This document shows, in pieces, positions 17,349 through 55,501 of a stretch of DNA of 64,000 nt; within the stretch, counting starts at the first letter, position 1, and the number at the start of each line of letters is the position of its first letter. A model generated the notes under the pieces. The model was not told where the DNA came from. It searched no databases and saw only the letters and a list, made by a program, of their open reading frames with translations. The stretch comes from Chloropicon primus (lineage: Eukaryota > Chlorophyta > Chloropicophyceae > Chloropicales > Chloropicaceae): NCBI GenBank assembly GCA_023205875.1, contig CP060759.1:473501-537500 (forward strand), written 5' to 3'. The position numbers were made by a program, and so were the translations under genes.

Positions 17349-17988
17349 CGTCGTGATCGTGGTTGGAGAGCGACAGAAGCAGCTCCACCGGCCTCAGGTC
17401 CCCCAGGGAGGCGAAGAAGTGATCGCAGATTCTGAACACGAGGCGGAACGCCGAGGAAAGAGAGCTTGTGCGATCTTCACGTCCTCCTCCTCCTGCCTCC
17501 TCCTCGCGATGCGATCGATCGATCACCGGCAGCTGTCCTCTTCGATCAAAGTGATCGCAGACTTCCCACCCACGCACGAAAAGAGGAAAGAAAAAAAACC
17601 GAGAGAAGCACAGGGAGCAGAGACACTGGCAAGTCTTCGTCTTCACGTCCTCCTCCTCCTGCCTCCTCCTCGCGATGCGATCGATCGATCACCGGCAGCT
17701 GTCCTCTTCGATCAAAGTGATCGCAGACTTCCCACCCACGCACGAAAAGAGGAAAGAAAAAAAACCGAGAGAAGCACAGGGAGCAGAGACACTGGCAAGT
17801 CTTCGTCTTCACGTCCTCCTCCTCCTGCCTCCTCCTCGCGATGCGATCGATCGATCACCGGCAGCTGTTCCCTCCCCGCTAAGGAACGTTATCCCGCCGA
17901 TCTCGATCGGATGATCGCCGATTTTGATTTTTGATTTTTTTTTGGTTTTAGGTGGCGGCTGAAGGAACGATCAGTCGGGGGGAGCACC
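17349..17988. promoter_or_regulatory. Divergent promoter region occupied by a tandem repeat
   Basis: 640 bp between the coiled-coil gene (minus) and bS6m (plus). About 390 bp of it is a 166-bp tandem repeat (listed separately). The last about 100 bp before the bS6m ATG is T-rich, with TTTTGATTTTTGATTTTT near 17920. Confidence 0.5.
17475..17866. repeat. 166-bp tandem repeat, about 2.4 copies
   Basis: Copies begin at 17475, 17641 and 17807, each with CTTCACGTCCTCC. Copies 1 and 2 look identical by eye; the third stops after about 60 bp at GGCAGCTGT. Each unit holds CGATCGATCGATC and a CAAAGTGATCGCAGACTT block. Identity implies a very recent or homogenised array between two promoters. Confidence 0.95.
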
Positions 17989-19098: not shown

Positions 19099-19163
19099 GG
19101 GTTCGAATGTACAACAGGTAAGCTTCGGCCAGTGACTTTTCTGACTTCTTTGTTGTTTCTGAT

Positions 19164-19247
19164 AGGCATATGATGAAGAACCATTATTTTTATCAGTTAT
19201 CCCTATCTGAATAAGAATTTGAGGACCATTAGCTCTACCTGATGCTT
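19164..19247 (+). ncRNA. C/D-box snoRNA, double guide (18S and 25S rRNA)
   Basis: Terminal stem AGGCA/TGCTT, C box ATGATGA at 19170, D' box CTGA at 19207, D box CTGA at 19239. The stretch before D', CAGTTATCCCT, is complementary to AGGGATAACTG of the peptidyl-transferase region of large rRNA; the fifth base from D' pairs with the G equivalent to yeast Gm2815 (snR38 site). The stretch before D, ATTAGCTCTA, is complementary to 18S TAGAGCTAAT; the +5 rule picks the A equivalent to human Am166 (U44 site). Two independent +5 hits on known sites make this strong. Confidence 0.88.
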
Positions 19248-19421
19248 GAAACAACGAGAAAAGAAAAGTCTTCGTAGGCAAGCAAGTGCGAGGAGAAGAA
19301 GCTCTGTTCCTGACTTGTGGTTTGCCTTTCGTCTTTCCAGTGATACTTTATTTTTGCGGACAAGCAAGTGTATTTTTGTAGCCAACAGGTGAGTTTGGAA
19401 TATGACAACAGCAACAACAAA

Positions 19422-28483: not shown

Positions 28484-28492
28484 AAAAAAAAA
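28484..28492 (-). terminator. Pol III T-run terminator of U6
   Basis: Nine consecutive T on the minus strand directly after the U6 3' end. Confidence 0.9.
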
Positions 28493-28591
28493 TTTGGACT
28501 CTTCTCGATTTATGCGTGTCATCCTTGCGCAGGGGCCATGCTAATCATCTCTGTATCGTTCCAATTTTGAAAAATGACTCCGGAGAGTCAC
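28493..28591 (-). ncRNA. U6: U6 spliceosomal snRNA
   Basis: Catalytic spliceosomal RNA. The minus strand reads a 5' stem-loop GACTCTCCGGAGTC, then CAAAATTGGAACGATACAGAG, the invariant ACAGAG box, GATTAGCATGGCCCCTGCGC with the AGC triad (U4/U6 helix region), AAGGATGACACGC and a 3' tail ending in the T-run. It matches the human U6 core almost base for base from AAAATTGG to GACACGC; one visible change is GATGATTAGC for GAAGATTAGC. Length about 99 nt, normal for U6. 5' end set by the stem and the TATA distance, accurate to a few bases. Confidence 0.97.
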
Positions 28592-37779: not shown

Positions 37780-38148
37780 CGCTTCGACAAAGGTCTCAAT
37801 CAACTCAAACTGATCGCCAAGCGCTGCTTGCTTGCTTGCTTTTCACGTGCTCGTGCTACGGCACTTGAGGATATTTTTGGATGAATGATGGATGGATGAA
37901 TGAAGTTTGGGACGGTTGCGGTGTGGGTGATGGTGACGGAGGCGAGAGGGAGGGCCCGGGCATCGATTCCCTGTCTTCGTGGTCTTTCTCTTGATTCCTC
38001 GCTTGCTGAGAATGGCCCACTTGGCAGGGTTTGAGAGACCAGAAGAGCGTTGTCATTGTGTTTATTTCTTGGGCTGTTACACTTGTCGCTGGAGTGCCCG
38101 GCGGTGGGATTGAGGCCTTCCGCTGGGCGCCAGGGAGGCGACGGGGTT
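37780..38148. other. Intergenic spacer
   Basis: 369 bp between HISN7 and the first cytochrome b5 reductase gene, both on the minus strand. A GCTT tetranucleotide run (about 37826-37840) and an ATGGATGA-type repeat (about 37882-37902) are visible. No gene. Confidence 0.5.
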
Positions 38149-39072
38149 TTAGAATTTGAAGACCTGGTCTGAGGTGTACCCGAGGTCCTTCAACAAGCCC
38201 TTGAGCTCTCCCTGGGACTTGTCAGGGGCCTTGTCGCCGGAGATGACGTTCATCATCGGCGGGGGACCGCACACGAACACCATGTTCTCGTTCGAGGGGG
38301 CGGGCATCCTCTGCTGCAGCATCTCCTTGGTGATGTACCCCTTCCCTCCCTTCCAGAAGAAGCCTGGCTTGTCCAGGACGTAGAACACCTCGAACCTGTC
38401 CGGGTGCTTCTTCGCGTACTCGTCCAGCTCCTTCCTCAATATGATGTCCTTCTCGGTCACGTTGCCGAAGATGAGGGACACCTTGGTCTTGTCCTCCGGG
38501 TTGCTCAGGATGGCCTCCGCGACTTGGAGCATGGGCGTGATGCCCGTGCCGCCCGCGACCATGCCGATGTGCTTCTTCATGTTGGCCGCGTAAGGGAGCT
38601 TGACGATCGGCCCCTTGATCTCCAGGCTGTCCCCTGTCTTGAGGTTCCCAAAGTGCTTGGACATCACGCCCTTCTCGTACACCTTGACCACCAGGTCGAA
38701 GTGTCCTTTGGTAGTCGCCGAGGAGGTTGGAGTATAAGGCCTGACGACGTGCTCTTTGGTGCCGTCCTCCTGCTCTTCCCCGATCCTCGCCCGAACGAGG
38801 AGGCAGGAAGCGACCGGGAGGTTGATGGAGTCCTCCGCGTCGTCGAGCTTGAACCTGTACAAGTGCGTGTTCCCCGTGACTTTTGTGCGCTCGCTCAGCG
38901 TGAACGGAACCCAAGCGTCCTCTTGCATGCCCCCGTGCTGCTTGGCTTTCACCCTCGTCATCGTCGCCCTCCTCGCCGCTTCCTTCGAAGAAAGGGTGCG
39001 CGAGGCGCTGCCGCGGAGACCTCCGTACGCCCTCCTGCCGACCAGGCGAGGCCCTCCTCGTGCCAGCATCAT
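38149..39072 (-). CDS. NADH-cytochrome b5 reductase, copy 1
   Basis: FAD enzyme passing electrons from NADH to cytochrome b5 (fatty-acid desaturation, sterol synthesis). 307 residues from the ATG at 39072. FAD-binding RPYTPTS, FNLKTGDSLEIKGP-like turn, then the NADH domain with GGTGITPMLQV, VFVCGPPPMMNVISG and C-terminal FKF, all family signatures. The N-terminal about 45 residues (MMLARGGPRLVGRRAYGG) are basic and contain no clear membrane helix, unlike copy 2, suggesting mitochondrial or plastid import. Its catalytic region is almost identical at DNA level to the inverted copy at 39727-40689. Confidence 0.93.
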   Translation of the reverse strand: MMLARGGPRLVGRRAYGGLRGSASRTLSSKEAARRATMTRVKAKQHGGMQEDAWVPFTLSERTKVTGNTHLYRFKLDDAEDSINLPVASCLLVRARIGEEQEDGTKEHVVRPYTPTSSATTKGHFDLVVKVYEKGVMSKHFGNLKTGDSLEIKGPIVKLPYAANMKKHIGMVAGGTGITPMLQVAEAILSNPEDKTKVSLIFGNVTEKDIILRKELDEYAKKHPDRFEVFYVLDKPGFFWKGGKGYITKEMLQQRMPAPSNENMVFVCGPPPMMNVISGDKAPDKSQGELKGLLKDLGYTSDQVFKF

Positions 39073-39726: not shown

Positions 39727-40689
39727 ATGAGCAGCAGCAGTAGCATCATGTTCGCGAGAAAGTCTTTGATGTACCTCGGAGGGGCTGCGATCGGCGGAGC
39801 ACTTGGTGTTCGCCTCGGGTCGCACATGCTGGGCGACAAGGCCGACGGGATGAGGCTGGCGACGTTCAAGACCGCGGAAGCCGACTCTACGAAAAGCAAG
39901 CACGGGGGCATGCAGAAGGACGCTTGGGTTCCGTTCACGCTGAGCGAGCGCACAAAAGTCACGGGGAACACGCATTTGTACAGGTTCAAGCTCGACGACG
40001 CGGAGGACTCCATCAACCTCCCGATCGCTTCCTGCCTCCTCGTTCGGGCGAGGATCGGGGAGAAGCAGGAGGACGGGAACAACAAGTTCGTCATCAGGCC
40101 TTATACTCCAACTTCTGCTTCGACTACCAAAGGGTACTTCGACCTGGTGGTCAAGGTGTACGAGAAGGGCGTGATGTCCAAGCACTTTGGGAACCTCAAG
40201 ACAGGGGACAGCCTGGAGATCAAGGGGCCGATCGTCAAGCTCCCTTACGCGGCCAACATGAAGAAGCACATCGGCATGGTCGCGGGCGGCACGGGCATCA
40301 CGCCCATGCTCCAAGTCGCGGAGGCCATCCTGAGCAACCCGGAGGACAAGACCAAGGTGTCCCTCATCTTCGGCAACGTGACCGAGAAGGACATCATATT
40401 GAGGAAGGAGCTGGACGAGTACGCGAAGAAGCACCCGGACAGGTTCGAGGTGTTCTACGTCCTGGACAAGCCAGGCTTCTTCTGGAAGGGAGGGAAGGGG
40501 TACATCACCAAGGAGATGCTGCAGCAGAGGATGCCCGCCCCCTCGAACGAGAACATGGTGTTCGTGTGCGGTCCCCCGCCGATGATGAACGTCATCTCCG
40601 GCAACAAGGCCCCTGACAAGTCCCAGGGAGAGCTCAAGGGCTTGTTGAAGGACCTCGGGTACACCTCAGACCAGGTCTTCAAATTCTAA
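39727..40689 (+). CDS. NADH-cytochrome b5 reductase, copy 2 (membrane-anchored)
   Basis: Same enzyme family as the copy on the opposite strand. 320 residues from the ATG at 39727, or about 313 from the ATG at 39748. Its leader has a hydrophobic segment (KSLMYLGGAAIGGALGVRLG) that can anchor it in the outer mitochondrial or ER membrane, as in yeast Cbr1. RPYTPTSASTTKGYFDL, GGTGITPMLQV and CGPPPMMNVISG are conserved. Only a few residues differ from copy 1 after KHGGMQ, for example GNK for GDK and EKQEDGNNKF for EEQEDGTKEH. Two products thus share one catalytic domain but carry different addresses. Confidence 0.93.
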   Translation: MSSSSSIMFARKSLMYLGGAAIGGALGVRLGSHMLGDKADGMRLATFKTAEADSTKSKHGGMQKDAWVPFTLSERTKVTGNTHLYRFKLDDAEDSINLPIASCLLVRARIGEKQEDGNNKFVIRPYTPTSASTTKGYFDLVVKVYEKGVMSKHFGNLKTGDSLEIKGPIVKLPYAANMKKHIGMVAGGTGITPMLQVAEAILSNPEDKTKVSLIFGNVTEKDIILRKELDEYAKKHPDRFEVFYVLDKPGFFWKGGKGYITKEMLQQRMPAPSNENMVFVCGPPPMMNVISGNKAPDKSQGELKGLLKDLGYTSDQVFKF

Positions 40690-40788
40690 AACAACCCCAA
40701 CAAAAAGTTTTGTTATCCATCCCTTTGTGATCCCAAGGACAATTTCTTCCCCAGCAAAGGCCAAAGGCCAAAGGCCCCTTCCGTCGTC

Positions 40789-45725: not shown

Positions 45726-48700
45726 TCAAAGCTTGCTTCGCTTGGAAGAAGCCCGAGGGCGCCCCCCCTTCCTCTTCTTCCCGGCCCGCCGGCTCGAACT
45801 CTCTAGTTTGAGTTCCTGGAACCACTCTATCTTTCCGTCGTTGTTGAAGTTGTAGTCAAAGAAGAGCTCCTCCATCGGTGCGATGTCCCTCAAAGCAAAG
45901 ATCCCGAGCCTCTTGTCACCGCGCACAATGAAATTCTTTGGGGTGCAGTTCGCTTGCACCCCTCTGTTGGTCGGCGGATGGTTGATGAATTTGGACTTCG
46001 CTCCCAACCTCAGGGCATCGACCGTGGGGTGGGAATCAAGGCCCGAGGCCAAGTCGAAGAGGAAAGTGGTCCCAACGGCCTTGTCATCGTACAGTGCCCC
46101 CCTTCTGTCTGCTTCTTTCGTCGGAATCCTCTCTCCCGTGTATTCGCAGATGAACTGGTTCTTCTTGACGCCATCCTTCACGAAGAGCCCCCAGCCTTGC
46201 ACGTCCGACTTCCCCACGAGGGTTTTCACGTGGGACCACGTTTGCATCTTTCTGTTGAAGCAGCCCGTGGGCCCAGTGTCGCACTTCCTGCACCCGGTGC
46301 AATTGCAGGTATCCGGGTCGCACTCAGAGCCCCTCGCGAAACAGGGGCAAGCGTTAGTCTTGCAATGGCCTTGCTGAGCCTTGCAGTTGCAGCCCTCGTA
46401 CTTGTACTTGCAGTAATCGTTGACGTCCTGTTCCAGAATCTGCATGACCTGCTGCTTCTTATAGTTCTTCCTTTTCCTTCCTGCTTTCTTCTTTGGTTTC
46501 ACAACCTTGACCGATGGGCTCTCCACATGAAGCTTTTCTTCTTGCTTGCACTTGTGCGTCAAATAGTTGCGAATCGCTTTGCAAGGAAGCTGCAAAATTT
46601 TGCTCACCTTGCAGCAATCGCTCTCGTAGATAGAACCAAGAAGCACGCACTGCTCTTTCCAATTCGATGGAGCATCGGCTGGCATATCACTGGATTGGTT
46701 TGTGTTCGCAGAAGTGCCCTCTTGCTGCCTTCCTGTTTCCCCCTCCGCAGAGTCCTCCCAAGTGTGCAAGCAGCAGTCACCACTGCATGGGCTAAGCGGC
46801 TTCACCGGGGCTAGCATTCGCTTTGTGGGAAGCCCCTTTTCAATCAAAAATTCGTTTCCCAGAATGGTTTCTCTGTCGTAGATGCAGCTTTCTTGTGCAT
46901 CAAGCCCCTTGTGAATCAAACAATTGAAGATGTGACACCGCTTGCAATAGATGCTTCTCAGTCTGGGATAAGTATCAAAGCTGTAAGCGGGCCCGCTTTC
47001 TTTGGGCCTCTCATGGGGTATCATCCCCGGGATCACACTCTCCTTCATCGCATAGTAAGCGATAATGTTGTCCTCCACCCAGTCGTGCAAAACGTCGATA
47101 ACGTGTTGAGATCTCCCATGCTCTTCGATTGCTTTGAGAACTAGATACTTGATGCATTGACGCTCTTCCAAGTCTGGCAAATAGGACAGTGAATCGTGCT
47201 GGTCGATGTAGCCTGACAAGGGCTGGCTATCGTCACCGAGATGCGGCATGAACTCAAATTCTTCCACCCGCTCTCCCAAAATGTTCTTCTTTGTCAAGAC
47301 CCAAGAAGTCGACTTTGGGATTTCCAAGCTCTCGTCGACCTTAAACTTTGTTCTGATGCAGCAATCAAATGACTTTTTGGACAACTCCTCCACGGCGGCA
47401 TTTTCGGTGACTGGATTTGCCGCTTTGTGGAGATGGTCTCCCAGCCTGCTTCGTAACAGTTTCTTCTTCCGCGCAATTTGTGCCATCACGCCTGTCCGAT
47501 TGTGTTCGAGAATGGACTCACAATTCTCCTTCCTCGCGACCACCATCTCTTTCTCCTTGTACTCCTTGTACCAACGATGCAGCTCCGCCTTGAGTCTGCC
47601 CCTGTTTAACTTGGAACAAGAAGGGCCCGACATTAGAGTATCACTCTTTTCGTGAGGGCCGCCTGAGTAGCCAAGATCATCCTCGTGCTCCACCTTAATG
47701 CCCCGATGCCCCTCGTGAAGCCCGTCCTTTGCGTCTGACCTTTTCGAAGTAGAGGGCGAATGATCCCTTCTCTCCGGGCTAGCAGGGTGAGAATGCCCCT
47801 CTGACACCGTTACCGTGGACGATGCATCTCTTTTCATGCGATCGGCAAAGCCATTAAACCTCAGCCTGAGTCTCTGCTCGCGCCTTTCTTCAGGCTTAAT
47901 TTTACGACTCGGGCGATGTTTAGAGACCCCCTCTGCTGTTACCAAACTCTTCGTCCTTTCAAGCAGACCTTTCGTACCCGTCTTGAATTTCTTCGCTCTA
48001 AAAAAATCGTACTCAGTGTCCGAGTCCCACGTGTCGTACACAGAACCCAAGTCAGGCCCATCCCCGTTCGTCTGGCCACTGCTATCGTCCCGAACCTTGA
48101 TGAAATCGTCAACAACGTTCTTGACACCACCGACGACGCTTGGTGGCGGAGTCTCTCTTGACTCGTTTTCCATCTCCTTTTTTCCTGTTGTCTTCAACGT
48201 CTTCACCATCGCGTTCAGCAGGCCTTTGCACCGTTTTCCCTGCCGCCCTTGCTTCTGCACGACAGGAGGCTCCACGACAGGAGGCTCCACGACAGGAGGC
48301 TCCACGACAGGAGGCTCCACGACAGGAGGCTCCACGACAGGAGGCTCCACGACAGGAGGCTCCACGACAGGCGCCTGTCCTTCCGAGGCAGATGAAAGGG
48401 ATATGACTGAGATCGCAGCTCCCGAAAGTTGAGGAGAAGTATTCTGGAAGCATCCTGCATTCCTGCTAGGGAAGGGGCTCGTCAATTCCACGCCCCCAGC
48501 CCCCGCGTCGCCTCCCCCGCTCTCCCCGTGTTCTGAAGGCAGCCAGCCGGAGCCCTTCTCGCTGTCAGTAATGACAACCTCGGCGGAAGTTTGTTTTGCT
48601 TTCGAGTGCTTCCTCGAAGCATTCTGTATCTTCAAAGCCACTGCCGAGCGGGACGGTAGCATCGCCCGAGGCATGCTATTCATCCCTCCCCTCCCTTGGG

Positions 48701-48860
48701 TCCCTCCCTCCCCCACCTCATCCACCAAGATGGGGTGTCTCACCCCGCGCCTCCTTACCCTCATCGTCCCCCTCCTGTCCCTTCTATTTGGGCGGGAGCC
48801 TGACAGGAGGATCATCCTCGACATCGAGGGGAGGGATAGGATGGGATGGGGCGTGATCAT
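45726..48860 (-). CDS. E(z)-type histone H3K27 methyltransferase (PRC2)
   Basis: Catalytic subunit of Polycomb repressive complex 2. Up to 1044 residues in one exon; several early ATGs exist (for example before NSMPRAMLPSRS), so the N-terminus is uncertain. N-terminal about 330 residues are low complexity and include seven PPVVE repeats. Middle: coil and SANT-like helices (LKAELHRWYKEYKEKE), YSFDTYPRLRSIYCKRCHIFNCLIH, typical of E(z). CXC domain: CNCKAQQGHCKTNACPCF, CDPDTCNCTGCRKC. SET domain: GWGLFVKDGVKKNQFICEYTGE, then KFINHPPTNRGVQANC and GIFALRDIAPMEELFFDYNF. The usual NHS..PNC loop is here NHPPTNRGVQANC, changed and about five residues longer. Confidence 0.92.
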   Translation of the reverse strand: MITPHPILSLPSMSRMILLSGSRPNRRDRRGTMRVRRRGVRHPILVDEVGEGGTQGRGGMNSMPRAMLPSRSAVALKIQNASRKHSKAKQTSAEVVITDSEKGSGWLPSEHGESGGGDAGAGGVELTSPFPSRNAGCFQNTSPQLSGAAISVISLSSASEGQAPVVEPPVVEPPVVEPPVVEPPVVEPPVVEPPVVEPPVVQKQGRQGKRCKGLLNAMVKTLKTTGKKEMENESRETPPPSVVGGVKNVVDDFIKVRDDSSGQTNGDGPDLGSVYDTWDSDTEYDFFRAKKFKTGTKGLLERTKSLVTAEGVSKHRPSRKIKPEERREQRLRLRFNGFADRMKRDASSTVTVSEGHSHPASPERRDHSPSTSKRSDAKDGLHEGHRGIKVEHEDDLGYSGGPHEKSDTLMSGPSCSKLNRGRLKAELHRWYKEYKEKEMVVARKENCESILEHNRTGVMAQIARKKKLLRSRLGDHLHKAANPVTENAAVEELSKKSFDCCIRTKFKVDESLEIPKSTSWVLTKKNILGERVEEFEFMPHLGDDSQPLSGYIDQHDSLSYLPDLEERQCIKYLVLKAIEEHGRSQHVIDVLHDWVEDNIIAYYAMKESVIPGMIPHERPKESGPAYSFDTYPRLRSIYCKRCHIFNCLIHKGLDAQESCIYDRETILGNEFLIEKGLPTKRMLAPVKPLSPCSGDCCLHTWEDSAEGETGRQQEGTSANTNQSSDMPADAPSNWKEQCVLLGSIYESDCCKVSKILQLPCKAIRNYLTHKCKQEEKLHVESPSVKVVKPKKKAGRKRKNYKKQQVMQILEQDVNDYCKYKYEGCNCKAQQGHCKTNACPCFARGSECDPDTCNCTGCRKCDTGPTGCFNRKMQTWSHVKTLVGKSDVQGWGLFVKDGVKKNQFICEYTGERIPTKEADRRGALYDDKAVGTTFLFDLASGLDSHPTVDALRLGAKSKFINHPPTNRGVQANCTPKNFIVRGDKRLGIFALRDIAPMEELFFDYNFNNDGKIEWFQELKLESSSRRAGKKRKGGRPRASSKRSKL
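48261..48370. repeat. 15-bp in-frame minisatellite in E(z) gene
   Basis: Seven near-perfect copies of GGAGGCTCCACGACA (plus strand), giving PPVVE repeats in the encoded protein. Length differences between alleles are likely. Confidence 0.95.
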
Positions 48861-49120: not shown

Positions 49121-51022
49121 TTATACCACGTCCCAAACTCTGTAACGACCTTGACGGCCAACACGACTACCAGAAGCTCTGAAACCAAACCGCCGGTACA
49201 CCAAGTAGGAAACAGTAACAAAGGTGATGCCAAAGATCATGATGCTGTAAGATCCCAGCATGAACGAGTAGCTGCTTGAGGCAGTGCGGCTTATCATCAC
49301 TTTCTTCTTCAAGTCCTCCACTACGGAAGTCGTTGAGGGAACGCCGTTACTGACGTTTATTGACGGCTTTCCTTCGCTTGATCCCCCCGCTGTTCTGGCT
49401 TGTTTTGCTCCAGACACATGGTCCCCCATTTCGGTCGAGGGAGCGGAATCCTCCTCGTCCCAGTCCTCCTCCTCCTGCAAAGTAGGCATGATCAAAGTCG
49501 GAGTGCTCGCCATCGCGTTCGCCACGAAGGAGGACCTCTCCAGCTTGTCCCCACGACCCAAAGCAAGGTCGCTAAGACCCCTCATCGCGTTGACGTGGGA
49601 CTCGGTCAGTCCGCAAGTGTTGGGCTCGGGAAGCGACGCAACCTCCTCAGAAAACTTATCTGCGGGACTCCGGATGCCGGGAATGAGGCCCTGGTGCAAG
49701 TGAGTGATGTGCTCCAAGGCCATACCTGTCCAGTTCCTCACGTACTCCTTCAGCTCGTCCTTTTCGATGGGATTGTAAGTCTCCATGCAGTTCTTGTATG
49801 AAGCGAACCAGTTGCCAGCAATCTCCCAAGTCTCCGCGGAGGGAACACCAAAACCCGTGTGAACAAAGTCGTTGTGGGTCCCGTAAGCCACGTACCCAAC
49901 AGCGTGACCACCGGCGCCAACCGTGCATTTGCCATCCATCCAGCGCTGGTTCAACTGGCTCTGCAGCTTCACCTCTGCGAGACTGGCAGCAGTGTTAAGC
50001 ATGATGGGGCTGTAGTCCGGCGGCGAGAACATCCCGTGCATTCCCGAGTGCACGTTCACCACCGCGAGGGGCTCCACAGAATCGTAGACTCGAAACAGCA
50101 ACCTGGTCTCGGGCTCGCTAAGCGCGGCTGGGCCACCGTATTCCTGCTCCAACTGATAGTCTGTTGGCTTAACGTTCCAGTACAAGGGCCAGTTCCGGTT
50201 CGGATCAACGCCCCTGACGTTTGGTCTTTGGCAGATGTTGCTGGGATACTTGGAAACTACCTCCTCATCCAGCAGTTTCACTGTCCTCGGCCCCGGCCCG
50301 TCCTCCGTCTCCACAATGCGCCGAGCGCTCTTGTTTTCACAAGGAACAATGTGAACAACGGTGTCATCCAACGCCTTCAGTACACTGTCCACAAACAACC
50401 TGTCGTTGTCAAAGATGGGAAGCAGGGTCTCCACAGAAGCCTCGGACAAGAGTTTGATAAAGTACTCTCCCACCTCCGTTGTCACAAGCTCGCGACCGTG
50501 CTCGCCGAAAATAAATACAACGCGAAGCTTGCCATCCGTCGGCCTCTTGCGGGGTATCGCCCTCACATTCTCATTGTTCGAAGACCAGTCCTCCTGGTTG
50601 TTGTCCCTCAACCAGTCCAGAACGATGTCGTCGGAGCCTATGCTATTGATGGCCTGCAGAGTGTCGGAGGACAAACCACCGCGCTCGTAAACCACAAGCT
50701 CAAGGTCGGCACGATGAGAGGAGTTGCCCGCCAGGAGGCCATCGGACCTCAGGTTCTGGATGTGCATCTCCTTCGGGTTCCCCTCAACAACCTCGTAGAT
50801 ACGCTTCGTCTGCACGTCAAGCTTGGAATACATATTCTCCCAGTCCGGCTTTGGCAACGTGGTTTCCATCCGCCGCGTTCCTACCTCTGGCATGTCGCAC
50901 TTCAATATTCCAGCTTTATTGAAAGCTTCTCGTGTATTGAACGAGAAGTCTGCATACGCCCCATGGACTGACAGGCAGACCACTGCCACCGCCAATACCA
51001 ACACACCTTGGGATGAAAGCAT
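49121..51022 (-). CDS. Membrane-anchored M14 zinc carboxypeptidase, copy A
   Basis: Metallocarboxypeptidase trimming C-terminal residues outside the cell or in the endomembrane system. 633 residues from the ATG at 51022. Signal peptide (MLSSQGVLVLAVAVVCLSVHG), pro/N-domain, then the M14 fold: z-ligands H175 and E178 in FGEHGRELVTTE, R276 in DPNRNW, H325 in NVHSGMHG, catalytic E397 in SAETWE. An acidic Ser-rich stalk of about 85 residues leads to a transmembrane helix (SYSIMIFGITFVTVSYLVY) and a short basic tail. Type I membrane layout. Copy A and copy B are colinear without gaps over 49489-51346 at an offset of exactly 2286 bp. Confidence 0.92.
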   Translation of the reverse strand: MLSSQGVLVLAVAVVCLSVHGAYADFSFNTREAFNKAGILKCDMPEVGTRRMETTLPKPDWENMYSKLDVQTKRIYEVVEGNPKEMHIQNLRSDGLLAGNSSHRADLELVVYERGGLSSDTLQAINSIGSDDIVLDWLRDNNQEDWSSNNENVRAIPRKRPTDGKLRVVFIFGEHGRELVTTEVGEYFIKLLSEASVETLLPIFDNDRLFVDSVLKALDDTVVHIVPCENKSARRIVETEDGPGPRTVKLLDEEVVSKYPSNICQRPNVRGVDPNRNWPLYWNVKPTDYQLEQEYGGPAALSEPETRLLFRVYDSVEPLAVVNVHSGMHGMFSPPDYSPIMLNTAASLAEVKLQSQLNQRWMDGKCTVGAGGHAVGYVAYGTHNDFVHTGFGVPSAETWEIAGNWFASYKNCMETYNPIEKDELKEYVRNWTGMALEHITHLHQGLIPGIRSPADKFSEEVASLPEPNTCGLTESHVNAMRGLSDLALGRGDKLERSSFVANAMASTPTLIMPTLQEEEDWDEEDSAPSTEMGDHVSGAKQARTAGGSSEGKPSINVSNGVPSTTSVVEDLKKKVMISRTASSSYSFMLGSYSIMIFGITFVTVSYLVYRRFGFRASGSRVGRQGRYRVWDVV

Positions 51023-51346
51023 GTTGCTCCTCTTCTTTCGCGTCACAAGTGTTCGCGCGGTCAGGTCATTGCTCGATGTGCGTTTCGACTTCGATGGCCA
51101 GCGTTAGTCCTCGCCCCTTCCCCAGTGCCAGCCGCCGAGGTGGTCTCCCCTCCTTCTCTCCTGCTCCTCTCTCTCTGTCTCCTCGAGTTCTGCTCCTTTC
51201 CCACCAAAAATGGTGATGATGGTGGGTGGAGCATCAGATGGCCGAGACAGGGGGGGACGGGGACGGGGACGGGGACGTGATGATGGTGGGCTGCGATGAG
51301 CAATGTGGCAAGGGTCATCCCAGTGAGCCGTGGAGACGCACTCAGA
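51023..51346. repeat. Duplicated 5' flank of carboxypeptidase A
   Basis: 324 bp upstream of copy A reappears upstream of copy B at 53309-53632, offset 2286 bp, apparently base for base by eye. It includes a GGGGAC repeat and CT tract. Similarity stops at CACTCAGA on both sides, marking the duplication edge. Confidence 0.9.
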
Positions 51347-51523
51347 TTACCAAAGCTTCGTAACCATGAATTACACGCGCATAAACTTAAATACAACAAA
51401 TATAAATACTCTACTACTTACATCCGGGGGGACGACGACGACGACGTTCACACCGTACCACAGAACGGGAGTGTGACAATTCAGTTTCCTCACGATCACC
51501 ACATCCTGCAATCATGTATGCAA
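51347..51523. other. Spacer between carboxypeptidase copies A and B
   Basis: Unique AT-rich spacer with GACGAC triplets; probably the 3' end region of copy B plus upstream of A. No gene. Confidence 0.5.
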
Positions 51524-53308
51524 CTACCGAGGTAAACGGCCAACACGACGGCCAGAAGCTCTGAAACCAAACCGCCGGTACACAAAGTAGGAAAAAGTAA
51601 CAAAGGTGATGCCAAAGATCATGATGCTGTAGGATCCCATCATAAGCGAGTATCTGTTTGAGTCCTCGGTGCTTTCCTGTACCCCTTCGTTCCGAGTGAC
51701 CCCCGCGCCCATATCTTCACCCACATGCGAATCTACAGGGGACTCTCTCTCGTCCTCCTCGTTCACTGTAGGCATGATCAAAGTCGGAGTGCTCGCCATC
51801 GCGTTCGCCACGAAGGAGGACCTCTCCAGCTTGTCCCCACGACCCAAAGCAAGGTCGCTAAGACCCCTCATCGCGTTGACGTGGGACTCGGTCAGTCCGC
51901 AAGTGTTGGGCTCGGGAAGCGACGCAACCTCCTCAGAAAACTTATCTGCGGGACTCCGGATGCCGGGAATGAGGCCCTGGTGCAAGTGAGTGATGTGCTC
52001 CAAGGCCATACCTGTCCAGTTCCTCACGTACTCCTTCAGCTCGTCCTTTTCGATGGGATTGTAAGTCTCCATGCAGTTCTTGTATGAAGCGAACCAGTTG
52101 CCAGCAATCTCCCAAGTCTCCGCGGAGGGAACACCAAAACCCGTGTGAACAAAGTCGTTGTGGGTCCCGTAAGCCACGTACCCAACAGCGTGACCACCGG
52201 CGCCAACCGTGCATTTGCCATCCATCCAGCGCTGGTTCAACTGGCTCTGCAGCTTCATCTCTGCGAGACTGGCAGCAGTGTTAAGCATGATGGGGCTGTA
52301 GTCCGGCGGCGTGAACATCCCGTGCATTCCCGAGTGCACGTTCACCACCGCGAGGGGCTCCACAGAATCGTAGACTCGAAACAGCAACCTGGTCTCGGGC
52401 TCGCTAAGCGCGGCTGGGCCACCGTATTCCTGCTCCAACTGGAATCTGCTTGACTTAACGTTCCAGTACAAGGGCCAGTTCCGGTTCGGATCAACGCCCC
52501 TGACGTTTGGTCTTTGGCAGATGTTGCTGGGATACTTGGAAACTACCTCCTCATCCAGCAGTTTCACTGTCCTCGGCCCCGGCCCGTCCTCCGTCTCCAC
52601 AATGCGCCGAGCGCTCTTGTTTTCACAAGGAACAATGTGAACAACGGTGTCATCCAACGCCTTCAGTACACTGTCCACAAACAACCTGTCGTTGTCAAAG
52701 ATGGGAAGCAGGGTCTCCACAGAAGCCTCGGACAAGAGTTTGATAAAGTACTCTCCCACCTCCGTTGTCACAAGCTCGCGACCGTGCTCGCCGAAAATAA
52801 ATACAACGCGAAGCTTGCCATCCGTCGGCCTCTTGCGGGGTATCGCCCTCACATTCTCATTGTTCGAAGACCAGTCCTCCTGGTTGTTGTCCCTCAACCA
52901 GTCCAGAACGATGTCGTCGGAGCCTATGCTATTGATGGCCTGCAGAGTGTCGGAGGACAAACCACCGCGCTCGTAAACCACAAGCTCAAGGTCGGCACGA
53001 TGAGAGGAGTTGCCCGCCAGGAGGCCATCGGACCTCAGGTTCTGGATGTGCATCTCCTTCGGGTTCCCCTCAACAACCTCGTAGATACGCTTCGTCTGCA
53101 CGTCAAGCTTGGAATACATATTCTCCCAGTCCGGCTTTGGCAACGTGGTTTCCATCCGCCGCGTTCCTACCTCTGGCATGTCGCACTTCAATATTCCAGC
53201 TTTATTGAAAGCTTCTCGTGTATTGAACGAGAAGTCTGCATACGCCCCATGGACTGACAGGCAGACCACTGCCACCGCCAATACCAACACACCTTGGGAT
53301 GAAAGCAT
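51524..53308 (-). CDS. Membrane-anchored M14 zinc carboxypeptidase, copy B
   Basis: 594 residues from the ATG at 53308. Same architecture and active-site set as copy A (HGRE, DPNRNW, NVHSGMHG, SAETWE). The body is almost identical to A; visible changes include VKSSRFQLEQ for VKPTDYQLEQ, MFTPP for MFSPP and MKLQ for VKLQ. The stalk is different and shorter (VNEEDERESPVDSHVG, then QESTEDSNRYS) before the shared helix SYSIMIFGITFVTFSYFVY. The tail ends RRVGRLPR. Likely the most recent duplicate with A, since flanks are shared too. Confidence 0.92.
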   Translation of the reverse strand: MLSSQGVLVLAVAVVCLSVHGAYADFSFNTREAFNKAGILKCDMPEVGTRRMETTLPKPDWENMYSKLDVQTKRIYEVVEGNPKEMHIQNLRSDGLLAGNSSHRADLELVVYERGGLSSDTLQAINSIGSDDIVLDWLRDNNQEDWSSNNENVRAIPRKRPTDGKLRVVFIFGEHGRELVTTEVGEYFIKLLSEASVETLLPIFDNDRLFVDSVLKALDDTVVHIVPCENKSARRIVETEDGPGPRTVKLLDEEVVSKYPSNICQRPNVRGVDPNRNWPLYWNVKSSRFQLEQEYGGPAALSEPETRLLFRVYDSVEPLAVVNVHSGMHGMFTPPDYSPIMLNTAASLAEMKLQSQLNQRWMDGKCTVGAGGHAVGYVAYGTHNDFVHTGFGVPSAETWEIAGNWFASYKNCMETYNPIEKDELKEYVRNWTGMALEHITHLHQGLIPGIRSPADKFSEEVASLPEPNTCGLTESHVNAMRGLSDLALGRGDKLERSSFVANAMASTPTLIMPTVNEEDERESPVDSHVGEDMGAGVTRNEGVQESTEDSNRYSLMMGSYSIMIFGITFVTFSYFVYRRFGFRASGRRVGRLPR

Positions 53309-53632
53309 GTTGCTCCTCTTCTTTCGCGTCACAAGTGTTCGCGCGGTCAGGTCATTGCTCGATGTGCGTTTCGACTTCGATGGCCAGCGTTAGTCCTCGC
53401 CCCTTCCCCAGTGCCAGCCGCCGAGGTGGTCTCCCCTCCTTCTCTCCTGCTCCTCTCTCTCTGTCTCCTCGAGTTCTGCTCCTTTCCCACCAAAAATGGT
53501 GATGATGGTGGGTGGAGCATCAGATGGCCGAGACAGGGGGGGACGGGGACGGGGACGGGGACGTGATGATGGTGGGCTGCGATGAGCAATGTGGCAAGGG
53601 TCATCCCAGTGAGCCGTGGAGACGCACTCAGA
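53309..53632. repeat. Duplicated 5' flank of carboxypeptidase B
   Basis: Second copy of the 324-bp block seen at 51023-51346. The two genes may therefore share promoter control. Confidence 0.9.
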
Positions 53633-53656
53633 CTCCTTCAACTTCAACAAGAAAAT

Positions 53657-55501
53657 TTATATAATAATCATTACACAGTCACACCCAACAGTGTTTTGCA
53701 CACGGATCACACGACGTCCCAAACTCTGTAGCGACGGGGACGACGACGACCAGAAGATCTGGAAACCAAATCGCCGGTATACGTAGTAGGAAACAGTAAC
53801 AAAGGTGATGCCAAAGATCATGATGCTGTAGGATCCCATCATAAGCGAGTAACTATTTGCTGCGCCACGGCTTTGTCCCAATGCCTCGTTCCCCGTCAGC
53901 AAATTTCCATTCACTGGCTTTCCATTCTGAACTGAAGATGCCACGACACCAAAAAGGCCCCCCGTTCTAGGCTTGACCTCCTCAAAAGTAGGCATGACCA
54001 AAGTCGGAGTGCTCGCCATCGCGTTCGCCACGAAGGAGGACCTCTCCAGCTTGTCCCCACGACCCAAAGCAAGGTCGCTAAGACCCCTCATCGCGTTGAC
54101 GTGGGACTCGGTCAGTCCGCAAGTGTTGGGCTCGGGAAGCGACGCAACCTCCTCAGAAAACTTATCTGCGGGACTCCGGATGCCGGGAATGAGGCCCTGG
54201 TGCAAGTGAGTGATGTGCTCCAAGGCCATACCCGTCCAGTTCCTCACGTACTCCTTCAGCACGTCCTTTTCGATCGGATTGAAGAGCCCAAAGCAGTCAT
54301 AATATTCGGACCGCTCATTTCCGTATACCTCCCAAGTCTCCGCGGAGGGAACACCAAAACCCGTGTGAACAAAGTCGTTGTGGGTCCCGTAAGCCACGTA
54401 CCCAACAGCGTGACCACCGGCGCCAACCGTGCATTTGCCATCCATCCAGCGCTGGTTCAACTGGCTCTGCAGCTTCACCTCTGCGAGACTGGCAGCAGTG
54501 TTAAGCATGATGGGGCTGTAGTCCGGCGGCGAGAACATCCCGTGCATTCCCGAGTGCACGTTCACCACCGCGAGGGGCTCCACAGAATCGTAGACTCGGA
54601 ACAGCAACCTGGACTCGGGCTCACTGAGAGGGGATGCCCCCGGACCGTCTTCCGAGGATTTCTTGAAGTTCCAAGGCTTCACGCCCCCGTAAAGGGGCCA
54701 GTTCCGATTTGGGTCCACCGTTCTCTTGTTCACTCTTTGGCAAATATTTGGATCCTCTGACAACCCTGACTTCCCGTTGTTGGGGTCCGGGGTCTCCACA
54801 ATGCGCCGACCACTCTTGTTTTCACAAGGAACAATGTGAACAACGGTGTCATCCAACGCCTTCAGTACACTGTCCACAAACAACCTGTCGTTGTCAAAGA
54901 TGGGAAGCAGGGTCTCCACAGAAGCCTCGGACAAGAGTTTGATAAAGTACTCTCCCACCTCCGTTGTCACAAGCTCGCGACCGTGCTCGCCGAAAATAAA
55001 TACAACACGAAGCTTGCCATCCGTCGGCCTCTTGCGGGGTATCGCCCTCACATTCTCATTGTTCGAAGACCAGTCCTCCTGGTTGTTGTCCCTCAACCAG
55101 TCCAGAACGATGTCGTCGGAGCCTATGCTATTGATGGCCTGCAGAGTGTCGGAGGACAAACCACCGCGCTCGTAAACCACAAGCTCGATATCGGTGCTGT
55201 GGGAGGAGTTGCCCACCAGGAGGCCATCGGACCTCAGGTTCTGGATGTGCATCTCCTTCGGGTTCCCCTCAACAACCTCGTAGATACGCTTCGTCTGCAC
55301 GTCAAGCTTGGAATACATATTCTCCCAGTCCGGCAGCGGATAAGGGGGCCTCACCCGGGTTCCAATTTTTGGCATGCTACATTTCAGGATGCCCACCTCG
55401 TCGAACGCCTTCTCCGTGTCGAAGTCCACCGCATACGCCCCATGGACTGACAGGCAGACCACTGCCACCGCCAATACCAACACACCTTGGGATGAAAACA
55501 T
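53657..55501 (-). CDS. Membrane-anchored M14 zinc carboxypeptidase, copy C
   Basis: 614 residues from the ATG at 55501. Long stretches match A and B nearly exactly, including the signal peptide region and the active-site blocks. Between them lie patches unlike A/B: after the signal peptide (VDFDTEKAFDEVGILKC for DFSFNTREAFNKAGILKC), near the substrate loop (NGKSGLSEDPNICQRVNKRT; YGGVKPWNFKKSSEDG), after the catalytic Glu (EVYGNERSEYYDCFGLFNP for EIAGNWFASYKNCMETYNP) and the whole stalk (FEEVKPRTGGLFGVV). The cytosolic tail is longer and reads in a shifted frame relative to A's VWDVV ending. 5' flank differs from A and B. Confidence 0.9.
   Translation of the reverse strand: MFSSQGVLVLAVAVVCLSVHGAYAVDFDTEKAFDEVGILKCSMPKIGTRVRPPYPLPDWENMYSKLDVQTKRIYEVVEGNPKEMHIQNLRSDGLLVGNSSHSTDIELVVYERGGLSSDTLQAINSIGSDDIVLDWLRDNNQEDWSSNNENVRAIPRKRPTDGKLRVVFIFGEHGRELVTTEVGEYFIKLLSEASVETLLPIFDNDRLFVDSVLKALDDTVVHIVPCENKSGRRIVETPDPNNGKSGLSEDPNICQRVNKRTVDPNRNWPLYGGVKPWNFKKSSEDGPGASPLSEPESRLLFRVYDSVEPLAVVNVHSGMHGMFSPPDYSPIMLNTAASLAEVKLQSQLNQRWMDGKCTVGAGGHAVGYVAYGTHNDFVHTGFGVPSAETWEVYGNERSEYYDCFGLFNPIEKDVLKEYVRNWTGMALEHITHLHQGLIPGIRSPADKFSEEVASLPEPNTCGLTESHVNAMRGLSDLALGRGDKLERSSFVANAMASTPTLVMPTFEEVKPRTGGLFGVVASSVQNGKPVNGNLLTGNEALGQSRGAANSYSLMMGSYSIMIFGITFVTVSYYVYRRFGFQIFWSSSSPSLQSLGRRVIRVQNTVGCDCVMIII

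Follow-up and report, generated by a model that had tools for sequence, protein, structure and literature searches.

How can neighbouring genes be nearly identical over long blocks, silent sites included, while the segments between these blocks are close to silent saturation? The question is raised by three genes for M14 zinc carboxypeptidases, referred to here as copies A, B and C, which lie on the minus strand of a window (the whole stretch analysed, 64,000 nucleotides) in the genome of Chloropicon primus, a marine green picoalga described as mostly diploid in culture (PMC12301720). The window comprises bases 473501-537500 of contig 6 in an assembly of 17,584,162 bases and 20 contigs; the published description of the RCC138 assembly mentions nanopore reads, polishing with both nanopore and Illumina data, and comparison with SPAdes contigs (PMC12301720). 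On the best reading of these sequences, the common backbone of the genes has been homogenised by interlocus gene conversion or, for A and B, by recent duplication, and the patches within it have the look of old paralog sequence that conversion missed or failed to overwrite.

The tandem array and its predicted proteins

The array, with limits exactly those given by the sequence-only reading that drew attention to it, extends from the ATG of C at 55501 to the stop of A at 49121 and consists of three head-to-tail genes, all with open frames and apparently intronless:

51022-49121, minus strand: copy A, M14 zinc carboxypeptidase, 633 aa, open reading frame from ATG (Pfam PF00246, E 1.6e-15), laid out as likely signal peptide, peptidase domain, stalk, transmembrane (TM) segment and a tail ending in RYRVWDVV
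53308-51524, minus strand: copy B, M14 zinc carboxypeptidase, 594 aa, with shorter stalk and tail (Pfam E 4.8e-16)
55501-53657, minus strand: copy C, M14 zinc carboxypeptidase, 614 aa, with the divergent version of patches 1-4 (Pfam E 2.4e-14)

All three match Peptidase_M14 (PF00246) from profile position 44 onwards with scores of 54-60 bits, against a curated cut-off of 21.6, and their catalytic residues are intact. In A and B these are H175 and E178 of the HxxE motif with the downstream H325, together with N275, R276, Y377 and E400, and equivalents are present in C. The C-terminal half was assigned by alignment to PDB 2c1c, and the rest by motif and CPA numbering; we take Y377 and E400 to be the equivalents of Tyr248 and Glu270, and position 255, which lies at the base of the S1' pocket, is presumably occupied by Asn in all three copies. 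PDB 2c1c, which we take to be Helicoverpa zea carboxypeptidase B, is the best match among solved structures (E 6.3e-06, residues 277-411 of a B query 8 residues longer than the ATG-start protein), but it is a distant one, to which the algal proteins add an N-domain, a stalk and a likely TM anchor.

Outside the peptidase domain, Kyte-Doolittle maxima in a 19-residue window reach about 2.2 in the N-terminal hydrophobic stretch and 1.56-1.68 in the C-terminal one, values that point to a signal peptide and, following a stalk whose length varies among the copies, to a C-terminal membrane anchor; the enzymes may accordingly be displayed at the cell surface. In a Pfam domain scan of the three proteins, Peptidase_M14 alone reaches its cut-off, the N-domain being possibly too divergent for Propep_M14, and NCBIfam gives weak matches for A and C, all below cut-off. 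As an AlphaFold2 model from an alignment of just the three copies had a mean predicted local distance difference test score (pLDDT) of 27.8, it was not used, and the patches were placed on the enzyme by sequence motifs and CPA numbering.

A mosaic with near-saturated patches between C and A/B

When A is aligned with C, codons 1-510 contain 157 differences in 1497 nt, which are clustered much more strongly than chance would allow. Identity is unbroken for up to 270 nt, and five runs of at least 100 nt account for 993 nt; 20,000 shuffles of the same differences gave no run above 121 nt and never two or more of at least 100 nt. The diverged segments, with divergence expressed per synonymous (dS) and nonsynonymous (dN) site, are as follows:

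C 55334-55432 (codons 24-56), A 50849-50953, B 53135-53239, minus strand: patch 1, containing indels; 21.2 of 22.7 synonymous sites differ, dN 0.40
C 55187-55216, A 50702-50731, B 52988-53017, minus strand: patch 2, 30 nt, indel-free; 5.0 synonymous and 4.0 nonsynonymous differences
C 54599-54814, A 50093-50329, B 52379-52615, minus strand: patch 3, beginning at the Arg127-like residue, taking in NRNW and reaching the SEPE motif, containing indels; dS 1.1-1.25, dN 0.31
C 54260-54328, A 49754-49822, B 52040-52108, minus strand: patch 4, the loop right behind the catalytic Glu, indel-free; dS 1.8, dN 0.49
A 49286-49492, B 51668-51778, C 53867-53998, minus strand: stalk, old-diverged in all pairs and of differing length; dS 1.2-2.0, dN 0.5-1.1
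A 49178-49285, B 51560-51667, C 53756-53866, minus strand: likely TM segment, intermediate; dS 0.11 for A-B and 0.35-0.54 to C

Judged by eye, patch 1 starts at about the end of the likely signal peptide. Between the patches, dS of C against A/B is 0.008 (2.0 of 250 synonymous sites) and dN is 0.001-0.004, A and B show no synonymous difference at 250 sites, and the backbone codons that vary in any of the three copies number just five (alignment columns 2, 167, 334, 352 and 433). Pooled over patches 1-4, dS rises to 2.1 (A-C) and 1.8 (B-C), which is near saturation, with dN 0.35. The sequence-only reading had reported long blocks identical even at silent sites and had ascribed them to conversion of the backbone; the first is borne out by these values, and the second is supported by the way in which segments with identical runs of 67-270 nt and dS near 0 alternate with saturated patches, as expected of a conversion-like homogenisation. 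Uniform divergence along the genes, the outcome it had set against itself, is excluded by both the run-length shuffles and the dS of the segments.

What the patches are is indicated by their silent changes. The pooled dN/dS is about 0.17 (A-C) and 0.19 (B-C), rough values with silent sites so near saturation, and in the catalytic stretch VDPNRNWPLY of patch 3, A and C use different codons at 5 of 10 positions, every change being silent. Patch 3 therefore appears as an unconverted block rather than a hypermutated one, and the patches in general as old, constrained sequence, so that the oddity of the locus lies in the sameness of the backbone. These same figures speak against the active diversification of exposed parts that had been supposed earlier, which should have brought amino-acid changes up to or beyond the level of silent ones; the largest patch changed its catalytic codons silently only.

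The flanks are old as well. When the B and C regions are compared by blastn, their match begins at the ATG, and DNA upstream of C has no match (pieces of 100% identity that stem from overlapping cut regions and from a repeat upstream of A and B were excluded from C homology). As the upstream DNA of C is unlike that of B, and stalk and tail are old-diverged, the genes themselves would be old duplicates of which only the backbone is young. Stalk, TM segment and tail differ in every pair of copies, the divergence of the TM segment being intermediate, as if conversion there had been earlier.

In the tail of C, at about 53757-53765, one extra C follows TTTGGTTT by comparison with A and B; the frame there departs from the A-type ending into a different tail, and the extra base may be real or a base error.

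Copies A and B

Six codons separate A from B in the columns up to 511, namely the adjacent 286-289 and the single codons 334 and 352. The adjacent four form a micro-island of 12 nt in the loop after NRNW, flanked by A-B identical runs of 855 and 129 nt, and the identity of the two genes continues into their upstream DNA:

A 50156-50167 (PTDY), B 52442-52453 (SSRF), C (PWNF), minus strand: micro-island, codons 286-289, coordinates by hand from the ATG positions
51023-51346 (5' of A) and 53309-53632 (5' of B), minus strand: upstream repeat, 324 bp at 100% identity, without a blastn match upstream of C

The stalks of A and B are nevertheless as divergent as those of old paralogs, and the unit is therefore young in front and old at the back, a pattern that fits either a long conversion or a duplication with its junctions inside the genes. 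Because the micro-island and two codons are all that separates A from B before the stalk, there are in effect two types of peptidase domain, A/B and C. The patches described at the outset stand as differences between C and A/B, the stalk alone being different in all pairs as had been claimed, and to call the copies a repertoire of surface peptidases is too strong.

A probable history of conversion with retained islands

A history that would account for this mosaic begins with C and the ancestor of A/B as old duplicates of a membrane-anchored M14 zinc carboxypeptidase that evolved in concert. Short tracts of interlocus gene conversion would recently have made the coding backbones nearly identical, sparing the N-terminus of the mature protein, a short stretch of the N-domain, everything from the Arg127-like residue to beyond NRNW, and the loop that follows the catalytic Glu; these patches, together with the stalk and flanks, would retain the old divergence. 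A and B would later have been made alike, by long conversion or duplication, over the 324 bp upstream and the peptidase-coding part, each retaining its distinct old end of stalk, TM segment and tail. Selection would purge converted alleles, since the copies have their catalytic and S1' residues in common and it is the patches that would shape the outer substrate funnel and what lies around it.

Selection or passive escape

The patches may have been kept apart or simply left over, and we lean towards the former: the selective removal of converted alleles is, in our judgement, their probable keeper. That selection can raise such divergence peaks in genes undergoing conversion is well established, as reviewed for opsins (PMC3924837), and selected divergence islands have been argued for in copepod GOT1 (PMC3728101). 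Moreover, patches 3 and 4 appear, from motifs and CPA numbering, to border loops of the active-site funnel, the wall of which is described as formed by turns and loops (PMC5683605). The S1-S4 residues in the substrate-contact list given for bovine CPA include Arg127, Lys128, Asp142 and Phe279 (PMC10687636), and Glu163 is reported to make a contact as well (PMC5015106). Copies differing in these loops might accept different substrates.

Several observations weigh against such a role of selection, or against the conversion that it presupposes. Among the CPA contact residues, those that motif and CPA numbering allow to be located do not distinguish A/B from C (R177, D273, N275, R276, Y377 and Y409 in B numbering), with the sole exception of the Glu163 equivalent, which by eye is Gln in B and Ser in C; with most contact residues conserved, the patches imply no clear change of specificity. 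In the published example of an M14 gene whose function changed following tandem duplication, Xenopus CPO, the change concerns residue 255 (PMC9925722); this residue is invariant in A, B and C. A patch dN/dS of 0.17-0.19 carries no sign of positive selection, and the indels of patches 1 and 3 could on their own be an obstacle to conversion. GC content at third codon positions does not differ significantly between backbone and patches (Fisher p 0.20 in A, 0.28 in B and 0.74 in C), and there is therefore no signal of GC-biased conversion. Finally, the comparison comprises three copies from one strain, and conversion is read from their sequences.

The foremost alternative accepts the same conversion and dispenses with selection: divergence and indels would cause mismatch repair to reject the heteroduplex, and the islands would be functionless remnants. 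This is in keeping with the indels of patches 1 and 3 and the unequal stalk lengths, and the patch dN/dS is that of ordinary constrained divergence. It is also in keeping with a similar mosaic that is seen in the window in an unrelated pair of genes for FAD/NAD-binding, reductase-type proteins:

38146-38943 and 39894-40692, in divergent orientation: inverted reductase-type pair, PF00970 and PF00175 (Pfam on the plus-strand gene only)

From codon 81 of their shared part to the end, these two genes have 0 differences at about 117 synonymous sites and one amino-acid change, whereas codons 41-80 hold 6 differences at about 30 synonymous sites and 11 nonsynonymous ones. The diverged stretch spans codons 54-79 of the shared part, the N-termini are dissimilar, and the clustering of differences is beyond that in all 5000 shuffles. 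Perhaps the two are isoforms for different compartments. Since this pair is mosaic too, no peculiarity of surface proteins is needed to explain the M14 genes, and the formation of mosaics is probably a general process, not special to their locus. The pair equally favours the reading with selection, in which the same conversion is at work.

Patches 2 (30 nt) and 4 (69 nt) are harder to explain as remnants, however, as both are indel-free and would be expected to be overwritten by a tract of normal length. The nearest runs of at least 60 nt measure 119 and 179 nt at patch 2 and 270 and 231 nt at patch 4, and it is a single silent change, at codon 433, that separates patch 4 from the 231-nt run. 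The position of patches 3 and 4 beside known funnel loops would likewise be unexpected, and passive escape is a possible but doubtful explanation.

The selective reading may be extended to a modular system of surface peptidases, in which conversion keeps the scaffold and S1' pocket common, selection separates the modules of funnel rim, N-terminus and stalk, and the loop after NRNW is still being renewed. If so, the peptidases displayed by the alga would prefer one and the same terminal residue but differ in reach or partners. We offer this extension tentatively and think it rather unlikely in full.

Less probable origins: import, artefact and programmed change

A different origin of the patches has been considered, in which C was recently copied from A/B, or A/B from C, and short conversion tracts later brought in the patches from a divergent donor that is now lost or resides in another strain or species. 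For codons 1-511, four imports are about as economical as five homogenised segments. The upstream DNA, stalk, TM segment and tail of C are also diverged, however, which is unexpected after a recent whole-gene duplication, and searches of the 17.6-Mb assembly at the DNA level (query C) and the protein level (query B), in which the best candidates only were scored, returned A, B and C alone, with neither further copies nor patch donors. At least six other M14 genes are present in the genome (contigs 13, 1, 12, 2, 17 and 3), but their best tblastn match to copy A has E 0.14, and they are therefore not close paralogs. Such an import we consider improbable.

Still less credible is an artefact of assembly or polishing, by which false likeness would have been conferred on the paralogs or two haplotypes of a mostly diploid strain would have been mixed. 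Four Pilon rounds on near-identical tandem copies may indeed blur single-base differences, and errors of this kind might underlie the micro-island that separates A from B as well as the single-base change of frame in the tail of C. However, had the backbones diverged as far as the patches, reads from one copy could neither have been mapped to another nor have altered it, from which we infer that the backbone identity is largely real; silent saturation of the patches cannot be error, and the authors report a comparison with SPAdes contigs (PMC12301720). Programmed or targeted diversification by hypermutation or cassette exchange, yielding a repertoire of surface peptidases, finds some encouragement in the 12-nt micro-island, which has three versions in three copies amid a near-identical A/B stretch, but is scarcely to be believed given that patch divergence is constrained and rich in silent changes, that there are just two types of peptidase domain, and that neither cassettes nor donors were found among the best-scoring candidates of the own genome. 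Targeted hypermutation in particular is rejected on account of the patch dN/dS and the silent-only changes of the catalytic codons.

Known systems and significance

Conversion that leaves islands of divergence, possibly selected ones, has been described for other gene families, and the locus provides a new and clean case of it. In the copepod Tigriopus californicus, the duplicated enzyme genes GOT1p1 and GOT1p2 have islands of divergence amid near identity and a low ratio of nonsynonymous to synonymous substitution (Ka/Ks), a pattern read as conversion with possibly selected islands (PMC3728101); the copepod case is supported by several populations, whereas C. primus provides one strain and three copies. 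The red and green opsins of primates are likewise adjacent duplicates that are homogenised except for a divergence peak held by selection (PMC3924837), but their functional sites are known, while the meaning of the patches in C. primus has to be deduced. Closest in family are the tandem M14 genes for CPO in fish and Xenopus, for which evidence of gene conversion is described in a number of cases (PMC9925722). In that vertebrate system, S1' residue 255 changes in Xenopus, whereas the algal copies have an invariant Asn there and differ in the surrounding loops instead.

The array adds to these a sharp example of conversion and retained divergence within one open reading frame, where estimated silent divergence differs about 230- to 260-fold between segments that alternate at intervals of tens to hundreds of bases. 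The genome of the picoalga is compact and mostly diploid, and a second mosaic pair lies nearby. If the pattern proves true in orthologs, the kept patches mark the parts of an uncharacterised M14 enzyme that must differ between copies, which is directly assayable.

Relatives outside this genome have so far been elusive. Searches of public viral and prokaryotic contigs with the three-copy alignment, copy B and a 191-aa fragment of B returned none, with a short exact peptide prefilter that would miss distant relatives, and the own-genome search reported no relatives. The paper library searched contained nothing on carboxypeptidases in Chloropicon, and the words 'carboxypeptidase' and 'peptidase' are absent from the main texts of the two Chloropicon genome papers.

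Other repeated pairs and neighbouring features

Identical or very similar gene copies are described as often being in tandem in C. primus (PMC6731263). The sample bearing on the generality of mosaics covers the first 200 kb of contig 6 and the window, where two repeated pairs were compared besides the M14 genes, and yields no rate. One is the reductase-type pair; the other, at C6:55284, has 7 differences, placed towards its ends, in 1498 aligned nt with 99 gap columns. At 1235 nt, its longest stretch of identity exceeds that of all 5000 shuffles, and the dispersion of its differences does so only partly (fraction 0.05); it looks like a recent tandem copy and not a clean uniform control.

Internal repeats occur on contig 6 near C6:216, C6:111 kb and C6:167 kb. 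At C6:111030-113110 (L029), direct repeats 69-97% alike recur every ~210-280 nt across 2 kb. An exact fourfold CCTAAAAA telomere repeat was not found, the repeat unit being variable in print. Features of the window itself are:

17474-17868: perfect tandem repeat of two complete 166-nt units and part of a third
45726-48860, minus strand, adjoining the array: open frame of 1044 aa with a SET domain and VEPPV repeats (15-nt units at ~48240-48389)
28487-28589, minus strand: U6 spliceosomal RNA (Rfam)
19162-19249, plus strand: snoR38-like RNA (Rfam), barely over the cut-off

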